Below are positions 49,034 through 57,949 of a stretch of DNA of 64,000 bases, in pieces. Below the pieces are notes generated by a model that was not told where the DNA came from, did not search any database, and saw nothing but the letters and a program-made list of their open reading frames with translations. Source of the DNA: Acidobacteriota bacterium (GTDB taxonomy: Bacteria > Acidobacteriota > Terriglobia > Terriglobales > Acidobacteriaceae); assembly GCA_025359885.1 (NCBI GenBank), contig JANYDG010000062.1, positions 1 through 64,000 of the forward strand. Reading direction: 5' to 3'. The translations under genes were made by a program, and so were the position numbers. Every line of letters begins with the position of its first letter. The stretch's first letter is position 1.

Positions 49034-50479
49034 TTATTCAACCGCGTTTTTGGCGATGACCTCCCGATACCACTGCGCGCTCAGCTTAGCCGTGCGCTTC
49101 TGCGTTTTGAAGTCAACATAATGAATGCCAAAACGCTTGCTGTAGCCATCAGCCCACTCGAAATTGTCCAACAGGCTCCAGAGGAAGTAGCCCTTGACTG
49201 GGTAACCTTCCGATGCGGCGCGATGCAGGTGGGTGAGATGATTGCGCAGATACATGACGCGGTCGATGTCTTCAATCTGCCCCGCAGCGTTCGGCACGTC
49301 GTCTGAGGAGCAACCGTTCTCGGTAATGAAGATGCCCTTCGGGTTCCAGAGATCACACGTGTTGCGAACTGCCCAATAGATGCACTCCGGACCGATGGTG
49401 AGCCAGGGCGAAGCCATGTGCGGGTACGAGGTAGGCGCGGGTTCAATGGCGAAGCCTCGCTTTGAGTCCTCCGCGCGGACATAGGTGGGCGTGTAGACGT
49501 TGAGCCCGACAAAGTCGAGTGCGCCGCCAATGGCCTTGAAGTCACCCGCCTCGACCTTGGGCGCGTCCGCTCCCTCACGCTGCAAATACTCGTCGATGTA
49601 CCTGCCTTCCATAAGCGCGGTGAGAAAGGGCGCGTTGCGAACCCGGGTGGCCTTTTGCGCGGCCTTGATGTGTTCTTCGGTCTCGATGACGGGGACGAAG
49701 ACTGCGGCATTTTCTGCCAGGCCTACCTGAACATCGCTCGGGCTGTTGGCGCGCAGTGCCTGCAAGGCAAATCCGTGGGCGAGGATGCCGTGATGCCGCA
49801 CCTGGTTCGCAGCGCCGTTTGCAAGCTTCAGACCCGGCGCAAACTGCCCGATCCGATAGCCAAGGTCGGTAAAGCAGGTAAACTCATTGGTCGTCATGAA
49901 GTGCTTGACGCGGTCAGAGAAATGCTTGCCGATGTAAGCCGCGTAGTCGCCAAACGCCTTGGAGGTATCGCGATTTTGCCAGCCGCCAGCCAGGCCCGCA
50001 GGCGTATCCCAGTGAAAGAGCGTGACGTAAGGTGTGATGTTGTTGGCCAGCAACTCATCGACGACCCGGTTGTAGTAATCCACGCCCTTTGGATTCACCG
50101 CTCCTGCGCCCGAGGGAAAGACCCGCGACCACGAAATCGACATGCGGTAAGTGCTGACGCCAAGCGCCTTGAGCAGTTGAATATCTTCCTTGTAGCGGTG
50201 ATAAGAATCGTCAGCGACGTCGCCGGTTTCGCCGAGATGGGTTTTGCCGGGCGTGTGCGAAAAAGTGTCCCAAAGCGACGGTCCGCGGCCGTCTTCCGCT
50301 GCACCGCCCTCCACCTGGTAGGCCGCCGTGGCGCAGCCCCAGAGGAAGCCCTGGGGAAAGCTCAGCGTACTGACATGCGGCTGGGCCAGGCCAAACTTTG
50401 GCAGAGCAACCCCGGCAAGAGCAGCGGCGGTAGAAAGAGCGGCGGTTTTGCCAAACTGGCGGCGGGTAATGAGTGTCAT
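49034..50479 (-). CDS. Beta-glucosidase GH1, Tat-type signal
   Basis: ITRRQFGKTAALSTAAALAG twin-arginine signal; FPQGFLWGCATAAYQVEG, IFITENGCSSDD, SLLDNFEWADGYSKRFG. Confidence 0.93.
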   Translation of the reverse strand: MTLITRRQFGKTAALSTAAALAGVALPKFGLAQPHVSTLSFPQGFLWGCATAAYQVEGGAAEDGRGPSLWDTFSHTPGKTHLGETGDVADDSYHRYKEDIQLLKALGVSTYRMSISWSRVFPSGAGAVNPKGVDYYNRVVDELLANNITPYVTLFHWDTPAGLAGGWQNRDTSKAFGDYAAYIGKHFSDRVKHFMTTNEFTCFTDLGYRIGQFAPGLKLANGAANQVRHHGILAHGFALQALRANSPSDVQVGLAENAAVFVPVIETEEHIKAAQKATRVRNAPFLTALMEGRYIDEYLQREGADAPKVEAGDFKAIGGALDFVGLNVYTPTYVRAEDSKRGFAIEPAPTSYPHMASPWLTIGPECIYWAVRNTCDLWNPKGIFITENGCSSDDVPNAAGQIEDIDRVMYLRNHLTHLHRAASEGYPVKGYFLWSLLDNFEWADGYSKRFGIHYVDFKTQKRTAKLSAQWYREVIAKNAVE

Positions 50480-50753: not shown

Positions 50754-52064
50754 ATGCTCCTTCGATTCAGTTGCAAAAACTTCCGGTCAATTCGCGAAGA
50801 ACAAGAAATTTCCCTCGTCGCCTCAAAGCCACGTAGTGAAAACCCTGATCCTCGGCTCCTCGTGACAGGAATTAAGGACGTTTGGGCTCTCCGTTGTGCC
50901 GCCATCTATGGTCCCAATGGTTCAGGTAAGAGCAATGTGCTGCGGGCAATGTCGGCTTTCAGGCACATGATTCTGGAATCACAGAAAAAATGGGATTCGT
51001 CAGACGGCATTCCTGCGAGCGACCCGTTCCTATTGGATGATTCTTCTGGGAATGAGAACACCGCATTCGAGGCCTCGGTCATGATTGATGCCATAGAGTA
51101 TCGATACGGTTTCAGTTTCAACGCGACAGTGATCGATCAAGAATGGCTGTCTGAGTACTCGCCCCATGAGAGAGTACTCTTCATGCGCAAGACTGTCGGC
51201 AAAGATGTCGAACTGAAATTCCCGGGAAGGAATTTGAAGGGGGCTACGCTTGAAACGATCAGGCAGTTGACAAGGCCGAATAGCTTATTCCTATCTGCAG
51301 CTGCGCAGAACAACTACGAACGTCTGTCGACGATTCATCAGTGGTTTACTAATAGATTTCGTATGATTTCAAGTCTTGAGAGACCAGGTATTCGCCAATT
51401 TACCGCCGAACTATGCAAGCAGGGCGAATTCAAAGATCGGATCATCAAAATGATGGGCTTCGCCGACAGCGGGATTAGTGACATAGTTGTCGAAGATAAG
51501 GAAGCGCCTGAAAGTTTCAAACGTACCTTCGCTGCGATGGCAAAAGCGCTCCAGGGAGAACACCCAGAAATGACGGAAATTGTTCGGATTTCTGACAATT
51601 ACGTGCGGACTGAAGTGTCTATGACTCATAGAGGAATTGGTGGCAAAGGCTATACGCTGTCGTCCAGCGAGGAGTCGGACGGCACATTGGCTTTTTTCTC
51701 AATCCTGGGCCCGCTTCTGGATGAGTTGAAAGATGGATCCATTTTGATGATCGACGAACTTGAATCAAGCTTGCATCCTCTTCTTGCTCGCCAACTGGTT
51801 CGTGTTTTCAATTCGCCGGAACTCAATCCGAACGGCGGACAGGTCGTCTTTACAACACACAACACAAGCCTTTTGGACCTTGGTCTGTTGCTCCGTGACC
51901 AAATCTGGTTTACACAGAAGAACGAGGCTGGCGAAACGGATTTGTACCCTTTGTCCGATTTCCGTCCGAGAAAGGACCAGAACATTGAAGCGGCATATCT
52001 CGCTGGAAGATTCGATGCCTTGCCATTTTTAGATGATCGGCTGCTGTTTGAGTCGTTGAGCTAA
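50754..52064 (+). CDS. RloA/AbiLi-like AAA-family ATPase
   Basis: LRFSCKNFRSIREEQEISLVA, Walker A YGPNGSGKSNVLRAM, Walker B GSILMIDELESSLHPLLARQLV, FTTHNTSLLD. Confidence 0.88.
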   Translation: MLLRFSCKNFRSIREEQEISLVASKPRSENPDPRLLVTGIKDVWALRCAAIYGPNGSGKSNVLRAMSAFRHMILESQKKWDSSDGIPASDPFLLDDSSGNENTAFEASVMIDAIEYRYGFSFNATVIDQEWLSEYSPHERVLFMRKTVGKDVELKFPGRNLKGATLETIRQLTRPNSLFLSAAAQNNYERLSTIHQWFTNRFRMISSLERPGIRQFTAELCKQGEFKDRIIKMMGFADSGISDIVVEDKEAPESFKRTFAAMAKALQGEHPEMTEIVRISDNYVRTEVSMTHRGIGGKGYTLSSSEESDGTLAFFSILGPLLDELKDGSILMIDELESSLHPLLARQLVRVFNSPELNPNGGQVVFTTHNTSLLDLGLLLRDQIWFTQKNEAGETDLYPLSDFRPRKDQNIEAAYLAGRFDALPFLDDRLLFESLS

Positions 52065-52110
52065 GGCTTAATCATGCCAATTTCCGTCATAGATTAGAAA
52101 GGGTTTCCGA

Positions 52111-52755
52111 ATGCCGAAGGGTACACGTTATAGAGCGGGTTCAAACAAGAAGCCACAGAGGGAAAAATTTCTAATTGTTGTCGAGGGCGTAGTAACTGAG
52201 TGCGAATACGTGAACGCAATTCGACGCTCCTTGAGGCTGAGCAGCGTTACGGTTAGAGTAGAGACTGGCCACACCGATCCGATCGGCATCGTCGAGTCAG
52301 CTAAGAAGCTGCGCAAATCCGCCTCCAAGTACGATCGTTACGACGAAGTGTGGTGCGTTTTCGACGTTGAGGCAAAGGTCACGCAGCAAGCGCGGTACGG
52401 GCTCCCTGAGGCAATCGACTCAGCGAGACGATCCAATATATCGGTGGCGATCTCGAACCCCTGCTTCGAGATCTGGCTACTTTGGCACAAGGAATCCCGC
52501 GAGGGCTACACCACTTCGGATGACGCTCAGCAGCGGTGTAAGCAAATTGGGATCACGGATCCCCAAGCCGGGAAGCACATTCAAAACGTTGACGACTTAA
52601 TTGAGAGCGACTACGAGACTGCAAGGGAACGCGCAGTGAAAGTGGACGCTGGGCACGAAAGGAATAACACTTCAACGCCGGAAGGCAGAAACCCGTCTTC
52701 CGGCGTATACCAGCTGATTGAAGCCATTTTCGCTGCGTTCAAGCAGGTAGAGTAG
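52111..52755 (+). CDS. RloB/AbiLii-like TOPRIM-type protein
   Basis: FLIVVEGVVTECEYVNAI, DEVWCVFDVEAK, AISNPCFEIWLLWH, NPSSGVYQLIEAI. Confidence 0.88.
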   Translation: MPKGTRYRAGSNKKPQREKFLIVVEGVVTECEYVNAIRRSLRLSSVTVRVETGHTDPIGIVESAKKLRKSASKYDRYDEVWCVFDVEAKVTQQARYGLPEAIDSARRSNISVAISNPCFEIWLLWHKESREGYTTSDDAQQRCKQIGITDPQAGKHIQNVDDLIESDYETARERAVKVDAGHERNNTSTPEGRNPSSGVYQLIEAIFAAFKQVE

Positions 52756-54495
<1,740 letters not shown>

Positions 54496-55063: not shown

Positions 55064-57949
55064 ATGTCGACCCCTCTCCGCCCCGATTTCGCCATTTCCC
55101 TTCTTCATGACACTCGGAATCGGGCGTTTACCGCTGCCGCGACTGTCCTCGTGATTGTTGCGCTCCAGATGACTTTGCCGACCCGGATTTCTGCCCAGTC
55201 CTCAACCACCCAGACAGGCCCCGGCGATCGTGCGGTGATAGTGCTGGAGCGAGCGGTCGGGCCCTCGGAAGTAATCGCCGAACTGGCTGCGAAGTCCCCC
55301 GCTGCAGCGCGCGCCATCGCCCAGGGCTTTCACCACTTCGGCACAGCTCGGCCCGAGCACCCGGGCGAGCCGCAGACCCTCACCTTCCGCTTCCAGCAGG
55401 CGACGACACTGACGAGCCTCACGACCAGCGCCGATTTCCAGGTGAAAGGCGGCAGTTGCGCCGAGGGCCGCGCCTACCTGCCGGGCGAGCGCTGCACGGT
55501 GGATCTGGTCTTTACCCCACGGGGGCCGGGCAACCGCACTGGGAAGCTCATTCTGAGCCACTCCGCCTCGACACGGCCGTTCACCGTGCCCATGGGCGGC
55601 GTGGGCCAGGCTCCGGCGCTCAGCTTTATCCCGTCGCAGATCACCACGGTTCCGTCGACAACGGTCAACGGTGACGGCACTGGGGTCGGGATTTTTGGCA
55701 ATCCGCAGGCCATGGCTATGGACGGCGGCGATCAGCTCTACATTGCCGATCTGTTGCAGAATGTCGTCCACACCATCGACATCAACGGGGTCGTCAGCAC
55801 CGTGATCGGAGGAGGTCAGAGCTCTCCCTTCTTTTACAACGACGTACCGACCGACATCATCCTCAACGGGCCACAGGGTCTGGCGACCGACCTTTTGGGA
55901 AATCTCTACGTCGCCGATACCCTTGATCGCTTGGTGCTCCAGTATGACGCTTCGGGAGTCATCTATCCGATCGTCGGTGGAGGGGGACAATCCTTCGATA
56001 CGTGTAGCTACCTTGACCCATGCCCTCAGCCCTCGAATCTCGTCATTACCCTCCCCACCAACCTTGCCACGGACTCCAGTGGCAATCTTTTTGGCAACAT
56101 GCTGGATCTGGCGAGCCCGTTTCTGACTCCCTTTGAATACACCTACACCACGTTCTCCCAGACGCCCGGACTTTTCTGGAATCTGGTCTCCCGTGAAGGC
56201 AACTCCTACAGCAACGCCATTGCCGTTGACCGGTTTGACAACGTCTACTACGGGAAGGATTTTGCAAACGGACCTGTCAACACCTGTGCCATCTGGGCAC
56301 AGGACCCCAACTTCGGCAACTACATTGTTTCCCCCTCAAAGCCAGCGCGTACCTGGAACGTTGCAGGTGGCCACAAATGCGGCTATGCGGGCGACAATGT
56401 GCCTGCCGTGGGAGCCTTGCTGCAGGGCGAGGTGGGCGGCATGACGTTTGATGCTGCCGGAAATCTTTACTTCACCGATTCCGGGAATCGACGCGTCCGC
56501 CGCATCGATGCACTCACCGGCATCATTCATACCCTCGCCGGCAATGGTGACAACGTCGGCTCCGGCGACGGCGGCCCATCGACGGCAGCCGGGCTTGCTA
56601 CCCCGATCGGCATTGCCGTTGATTCCCAGGGCAATGTCTATGCCACCAACGAAACAGACGACTCGAACTCCACAACCAGCATTCGCGTATTTGGCACAGT
56701 GGGCGAAGCGGCATTTCCAGCGCAGACTGTCGCCCAGCCCTCGCCAGACCTCAAAGTGCTGCTGACCAACACCGGAAACGTACCGCTGAAGTTCCTGCAT
56801 ACTGCGATCACTGGCACCAACGCGGCAGAATTTGCCATCGATCCGCTAACCACCAATTGCGACTTCTCGGCCGGACTCGACTCGGGCAAGGTCTGCCAGA
56901 TCAACTTCCGGTTTACTCCAGCTGCACTGGGGCCGCGCTCAGCGAGTCTCGTTCTTGCCGACAACACCCCCGGAGCAGTGCATCAGGTTCTGCTCTCGGG
57001 CACCGGAGCAACGCCAGCCAAGCCGGTTGTTTCGCCAACCGCTCTGGCCTTTGCCTCACACTTCCTGTCTGTCCCATACCCCGCCAAGACCGTAACACTG
57101 TCCAACTCCGGCGGCGTCCCATTTGTGATCCAGGCGATCACCTTGAGTGGGAGCGGAGCGGCGGCATACTCGCAGACAAATACCTGTGGGCTTTCCCTCG
57201 CGGCTGGCGCTAATTGCACCTTTTCCCTGCTTTACTTTCCAACGGTGCTGGGAGCCAGCCCAGCAGCCTTGAACGTCGTAACATCGGTCGGACCAGTCGC
57301 AGTCGCGCTGACTGGAACCAGCATCACCCCAACGCCTGCCAAAGTCTCCCTGACGCCAACCACGCTCGCCTTTGGAGATCAGGGCGTGATGCTCACCAGC
57401 AACGCCCTCACCCTGACTGTGAAGAACGTCGGAGGCACGCCGATGGCCGTCACCGCCGTCACCTTTGCTGGTACTAACTCCACAGACTTCAGCCTGATTG
57501 GCAATGGCTGCATGGGGACCGTCGCAGCACTTTCGAACTGCCAGCTGCAATTGGTCTTCACACCCGCAGCAACGGGGGCGCGAACCACCAGGGTCAACGT
57601 CTTTACCTCTGGCGGCAATGTCCAGGCAGTCCTGACAGGCACAGGCATTGCGGCAGCCAAACCCAAAGTCACGCTGGCCTCGAAGGTGAATCCAGCACCC
57701 AAAGGGAAGCCGGTCGCTCTCAAATCGCAGGTGGTCAGCAGCATTTCCGCAGGAGCCACCGGCAAGGTGCAGTTGCGCGAGGGCAGCAAGGTCATTGCGT
57801 CGGCGGTCCTCAAGGCCTCGGCCGCAAACTTCAGCCTCACCGGCCTGACGACCGGAACGCATACGCTCATCGCCCACTACCTGGGCGACGCGCACCATCC
57901 GGCATCGGAATCGGCACCGCTGAAGCAGGTGGTCACCGCGGCGCCGTAG
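55064..57949 (+). CDS. Secreted NHL-repeat / choice-of-anchor D-type protein with C-terminal Ig-like repeat
   Basis: NHL-like propeller (GNLYVADTLDRLVLQYD, GNLYFTDSGNRRVRRID), repeated LAFGDQGV...NVGGTPMAV modules, C-terminal Ig_3-like segment. Confidence 0.8.
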   Translation: MSTPLRPDFAISLLHDTRNRAFTAAATVLVIVALQMTLPTRISAQSSTTQTGPGDRAVIVLERAVGPSEVIAELAAKSPAAARAIAQGFHHFGTARPEHPGEPQTLTFRFQQATTLTSLTTSADFQVKGGSCAEGRAYLPGERCTVDLVFTPRGPGNRTGKLILSHSASTRPFTVPMGGVGQAPALSFIPSQITTVPSTTVNGDGTGVGIFGNPQAMAMDGGDQLYIADLLQNVVHTIDINGVVSTVIGGGQSSPFFYNDVPTDIILNGPQGLATDLLGNLYVADTLDRLVLQYDASGVIYPIVGGGGQSFDTCSYLDPCPQPSNLVITLPTNLATDSSGNLFGNMLDLASPFLTPFEYTYTTFSQTPGLFWNLVSREGNSYSNAIAVDRFDNVYYGKDFANGPVNTCAIWAQDPNFGNYIVSPSKPARTWNVAGGHKCGYAGDNVPAVGALLQGEVGGMTFDAAGNLYFTDSGNRRVRRIDALTGIIHTLAGNGDNVGSGDGGPSTAAGLATPIGIAVDSQGNVYATNETDDSNSTTSIRVFGTVGEAAFPAQTVAQPSPDLKVLLTNTGNVPLKFLHTAITGTNAAEFAIDPLTTNCDFSAGLDSGKVCQINFRFTPAALGPRSASLVLADNTPGAVHQVLLSGTGATPAKPVVSPTALAFASHFLSVPYPAKTVTLSNSGGVPFVIQAITLSGSGAAAYSQTNTCGLSLAAGANCTFSLLYFPTVLGASPAALNVVTSVGPVAVALTGTSITPTPAKVSLTPTTLAFGDQGVMLTSNALTLTVKNVGGTPMAVTAVTFAGTNSTDFSLIGNGCMGTVAALSNCQLQLVFTPAATGARTTRVNVFTSGGNVQAVLTGTGIAAAKPKVTLASKVNPAPKGKPVALKSQVVSSISAGATGKVQLREGSKVIASAVLKASAANFSLTGLTTGTHTLIAHYLGDAHHPASESAPLKQVVTAAP

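Follow-up and report, generated by a model that had tools for sequence, protein, structure and literature searches.

The DNA between a glycosidase gene and the sigma-factor gene rpoD of an Acidobacteriota bacterium holds two consecutive genes, one for an ABC-type ATPase and one for an RloB-like protein, which raises the question of what kind of system the pair forms and how it came to lie at this site. The window analyzed here, a stretch of 64,000 nucleotides, covers the pair and both of its flanks. With a probability of about 0.78, we read the pair as an AbiL-type two-gene abortive-infection cassette, horizontally acquired and located in the GH1-rpoD interval. Evidence for this reading includes (i) matches to the AbiLi and AbiLii profiles, (ii) the coupling of ATPase and RloB genes, (iii) carriage on mobile elements, and (iv) the alignment of RloB to OLD-type Toprim domains. 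Defence-system libraries already have models of AbiL pairs, which are widespread, and the window pair is one more copy of this known kind of cassette, real but ordinary, next to an essential gene (rpoD).

Layout and composition of the cassette

The locus comprises the following genes.

49034 to 50479, minus strand: GH1 glycosidase (Glyco_hydro_1, 476 bits), divergent from abiLi and outside the cassette
50754 to 52064, plus strand: AbiLi-like ABC/AAA_21 ATPase, 436 aa, ATG start (PADLOC AbiLi, E 1.6e-93)
52111 to 52755, plus strand: RloB/AbiLii-like Toprim-type protein, 214 aa, ATG start, presumed nuclease effector (PADLOC AbiLii, E 2.5e-23)
52756 to 54495, minus strand: rpoD (sigma-70; Sigma70 regions 1.1-4), convergent neighbour outside the cassette

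The two cassette ORFs lie exactly where the original prediction had placed them, both on the plus strand and 46 bp apart, and they probably form one transcription unit; promoter and terminator scans gave results at chance level. Their predicted AT-richness was also found. The GC content is 48.7% for abiLi (GC3, 53%) and 53.5% for rloB (GC3, 63%), against 58-62% (GC3, 66-76%) for the flanking genes, with the GC3 and codon comparison made against window genes only; the effect is more marked in the ATPase gene than in rloB.

Inspection by eye of the ORFs of 44-60 kb revealed no apparent restriction-modification gene, as the original prediction had also stated. While RloA/RloB of type I restriction-modification loci sit in a restriction-modification operon, the window pair is flanked by GH1 and rpoD instead. 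The description of the pair as a minimal defence island at a core locus holds for its acquisition but not for the word island, as this is a two-gene cassette standing alone. A search for insertion-element ends and target-site repeats at the cassette borders turned up nothing beyond short repeats such as chance alone would produce, and no second copy of the cassette stretch occurs elsewhere in the genome. The entire stretch from the GH1 start to the rpoD stop differs from that of the closest relative; therefore, the empty site is not definable to the base.

The AbiLi-like ATPase and comparison with known systems

The ATPase matches Pfam AAA_21 with 133 bits (E 2.6e-38) and AAA_15 with 44 bits, and it carries the motifs listed below.

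50910 to 50933, plus strand: Walker A GPNGSGKS, residues 53-60 (G53, N55, G58, and K59 invariant in 37 aligned sequences)
51663 to 51758, plus strand: ABC signature-like SSEESDGT (residues 304-311) and Walker B ILMIDE (residues 330-335)

Residues S308, G310, T311, D334, and E335 are invariant in the same 37 sequences, a switch histidine is present at H369, and the Walker, signature-like, and switch motifs are all conserved across relatives. The AlphaFold2 model of the ATPase (pLDDT 92.4) matched JetC and Rad50 in Foldseek, along with PtuA of Septu, PtuA of retron Ec78, and the OLD protein of T. scotoductus, and a profile search with the ATPase likewise reached retron ATPases, PtuA, OLD, and AriA. 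An ABC-type ATPase with Walker A and B followed by a 214-aa RloB-like protein had been predicted from the letters, and both proteins bear this out, with AAA_21/AAA_15 and full-length PF13707 matches and intact motifs.

The closest counterpart is AbiL (AbiLi/AbiLii) of Lactococcus lactis as represented by the PADLOC models, with which the window pair shares the order of ATPase and then RloB-type gene; both profiles match strongly, in agreement with the AbiL-like assignment made at the outset. The window has an AbiLi-type ATPase, an RloB/AbiLii partner directly downstream on the same strand, and intact catalytic residues of both the ATPase and the Toprim type, with E25, E30, and D85 retained and E87 as a conservative change. 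The pair differs in that its ATPase is about 27% identical to a lactococcal phage AbiLi-like protein, in its 46-bp gap, where the genes of most relatives overlap or nearly touch, and in having Glu for the second Asp of the RloB metal motif. OLD and the PtuA proteins of Septu and retron Ec78 have the ABC-ATPase fold in common with the window ATPase and, like Gabija GajA, also have a nuclease domain or partner. They differ from the window pair in that, as is established, the Toprim domain of OLD and GajA is fused to the ATPase and the partner of PtuA is an HNH nuclease (PMC12409363).

The original prediction had compared the ATPase-plus-TOPRIM make-up with both AbiL and PARIS, and only the AbiL half of this comparison stood. 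PARIS (AriA/AriB) is alike in pairing an ATPase with a separately encoded Toprim protein, the ATPase matches the AriA model PDLC02980 (E 9.4e-40), and the AbiL profile weakly reaches a solved AriA chain (E 8e-4). However, PDLC02980 equals Pfam AAA_21 both in length and in the span that it matches and therefore looks like the generic domain model, and the AbiLi model scores far above the AriA model for this ATPase. In addition, AriB is a DUF4435 protein rather than RloB, the ATPases of the two systems are only distantly related, and RloB matches AbiLii while reaching an AriB-like profile at E 0.08 only. It is thus hardly credible that the pair is a PARIS system or a close variant of one, and membership in PARIS was rejected because the genome has no match to AriB (DUF4435).

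RloB and its putative metal site

RloB aligns to PF13707 over 195 of 195 positions, i.e., at full length (129 bits), and three motifs stand out in an alignment of 78 RloB sequences.

52183 to 52200, plus strand: Toprim-like motif 1, E25-x3-T29-E30, with predicted metal-binding/catalytic Glu (78 sequences)
52363 to 52371, plus strand: DxD-type motif D85-V-E87, with Glu replacing the usual second Asp (D85 in 99% of 78)
52468 to 52488, plus strand: RloB-specific motif E120-I-W-L-L-W-H126 (E120 and H126 in 99% of 78)

Among these sequences, E25 is found in 95%, T29 in 85%, and E30 in 87%, and Y33 (100%) and K155 (99%) are conserved as well; all five are kept in the window copy. The alignment thereby names the residues to mutate in RloB. 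In the AlphaFold2 model (pLDDT 87.5), strands and helices follow each other in the order E20-24, H29-40, E46-50, H57-70, E79-85, H97-107, and E111-116, with E25 directly after strand 1 (20-24) and D85-x-E87 at the end of strand 3 (79-85), an arrangement that is Toprim-like. A profile-profile alignment (hhalign) of RloB with OLD-type Toprim domains from genomes of the same family gave an E of 1.9e-4 at a probability of 48%, with the metal-binding motifs in register, and the reversed control gave an E of 0.77. In Foldseek searches with the model, the best PDB matches were lumazine synthases (TM about 0.36, E about 2e-3), with no Toprim match in the PDB that was convincing or significant, and the sole significant match in a viral library was an RloB-like phage protein; a sequence-based search also found no relative of RloB among solved structures. 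Since Foldseek offers no convincing Toprim structure, we base the Toprim reading on motifs, topology, the profile comparison, and a published HHpred result (PMC10440598), which together suggest that RloB has a Toprim-like metal site.

The window RloB departs from the consensus at three positions: position 87 is Asp in 96% of the 78 sequences and Glu in the window and one Actinomadura copy, Ala replaces a Tyr found in 96% at position 153, and Ala replaces an Arg found in 90% at position 9. Because of these departures, the window RloB could have altered or reduced activity, and the pair might be a decaying remnant, intact in frame with an effector that is functionally altered or inactive. The copy in a genome of the same genus (G210) would fit such decay: its rloB (L047, C86, 8955-9580) is broken by a stop, with the halves in different frames, while its ATPase is intact, as if the effector had been lost first. 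Against decay in the window, E25, T29, E30, D85, E120, H126, and K155 are retained, the Actinomadura copy with Glu at position 87 has both genes open, and both window frames are open with the ATPase motifs intact. We therefore consider a remnant unlikely. Separately, three family copies (L044, L045, and L046) carry CDDTYAP where RloB usually has CEGxxTEP and possibly represent a sub-type with an altered metal site.

Gene-pair coupling, distribution, and acquisition

When about 85,000 species genomes were scanned with the ATPase alone as the query, 80 loci were kept, and 75 of them have an RloB ORF directly behind the ATPase on the same strand, mostly at a spacing of -16 to +3 bp. Of the other five, one is fragmented (L116) and four show no RloB; two of these four (L079 and L125) break off shortly after the ATPase. 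The hosts include Bacteroidota, Cyanobacteriota, Actinomycetota, Myxococcota, Campylobacterota, and Bacillota. The coupling of the two genes is therefore very strong, and the window cassette, as a clean stand-alone AbiL, is an example of a tight ATPase-RloB association that extends across many phyla.

Within the family, 11 of the 300 genomes sampled, the window's own among them, encode RloB, and a related ATPase lies directly upstream of it at each of the 10 other loci. The closest relative compared (G102) has an rpoD that is 99% identical in protein and 91% in DNA, and its GH1-rpoD interval, about 0.9 kb long, holds no AbiL; the remaining rpoD loci in the genus lack the pair as well, so it is not conserved as core at this locus. 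In the copy of G210, the ATPase is 46% identical to the window abiLi, whereas rpoD is 91% identical. The two copies group together in the ATPase tree (SH-aLRT, 99), in which the family copies need four label changes at the least-cost reading; a single origin within the family is compatible with this tree but does not follow from it. A 110-aa ORF without a Pfam match lies in the interval of the closest relative (L026, 6067-6399).

Related pairs are also carried by mobile elements. On a 5.2-kb mobilizable ColRNAI plasmid of Klebsiella, of which there are many near-identical records, the AbiL pair (L131, 2728-4696) is cargo beside little else but mobilization genes, and in a P2-like Klebsiella phage (ST13-OXA48phi12.1), the pair (L132, 2644-4630) is flanked by the genes for the replication endonuclease and the portal protein. 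Both proteins of each pair match AbiLi/AbiLii, and the gene order is that of the window; they differ from the window pair in being on mobile elements and in sequence (37% identity for the phage ATPase and about 29-30% for RloB). A Lactococcus prophage protein annotated as "abortive phage resistance protein" aligns to the window ATPase over its full length. The horizontal acquisition proposed in the original prediction agrees with the absence of the pair from the closest relative's interval and from other rpoD loci of the genus, its patchy distribution, and its plasmid and phage relatives.

The family AbiL loci are scattered across different sites, singly beside ordinary genes rather than in large defence islands. 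From their ORF translations, we take such neighbours to be, e.g., relA/gltX-, glmS-, pgm/topA-, and ligA-like genes. This setting could also suit an ATPase-nuclease pair that serves housekeeping or stress responses and has no anti-phage role, and a different class of OLD-family ATPase is reported to have a cell-cycle role in an archaeon (PMC12796447). Nevertheless, the patchy occurrence among family genomes, the low identity of abiLi to its nearest same-genus copy compared with that of rpoD, and the carriage of relatives on plasmids and phages make a purely cellular role very improbable. From the family to which the pair belongs, we infer an anti-phage function.

Possible mechanism

As an AbiL-type cassette, the pair most likely acts in three steps: (i) the ATPase would assemble into an oligomer and either keep RloB inactive or sense a phage product, (ii) upon infection, RloB would be released or activated by its ATPase partner, and (iii) the RloB nuclease would cut host or phage nucleic acid, so that growth and phage production stop. 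As the target of RloB, we tentatively favour RNA such as tRNA, by analogy with AriB of PARIS, over DNA, which is only a slightly less likely candidate. AriB is a Toprim tRNase that is kept sequestered by the ATPase AriA (PMC12409363). Related AAA proteins neutralize TOPRIM_OLD partners, and AAA/TOPRIM_OLD pairs act as toxin-antitoxin systems (PMC10440598). In Fusobacterium, AbiLii was toxic in E. coli and was not neutralized by its AbiLi (PMC3985639). This finding speaks against AbiLi being a simple antitoxin, so that it may be either an inhibitor or an activator.

The junction of rloB and rpoD

No spacer separates the two stop codons at this junction: the TAG of rloB occupies 52753-52755, and the stop of rpoD, which reads CTA on the plus strand, occupies 52756-52758. 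In all 12 genus relatives read, an intergenic hairpin lies at most about 85 nt from the rpoD stop, and in the GH1-rpoD interval of G102 a terminator-like hairpin lies at most about 70 nt from it. This intergenic DNA is gone in the window, where the sole comparable hairpin downstream of rpoD is the following.

52675 to 52706, no strand assigned: 12-bp inverted repeat within the rloB coding sequence, candidate terminator of the convergent rpoD, 49 nt past the rpoD stop

The fold z of this repeat is -4.8 on the plus strand and -2.1 on the minus strand, and the U tract that the hairpin has on its rpoD side is weak. If the rpoD terminator now lay in the rloB coding sequence, convergent rpoD transcription would run antisense into the nuclease gene and couple effector expression to housekeeping sigma-factor transcription, a scenario that we regard as improbable. 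On the other side of rpoD, dnaG lies close upstream in five same-genus relatives (L030-L033 and L035), where a 961-aa ORF with NHL and Ig-like domains was not found; in the window, this ORF (55064-57949, plus strand) sits between the minus-strand dnaG and rpoD.
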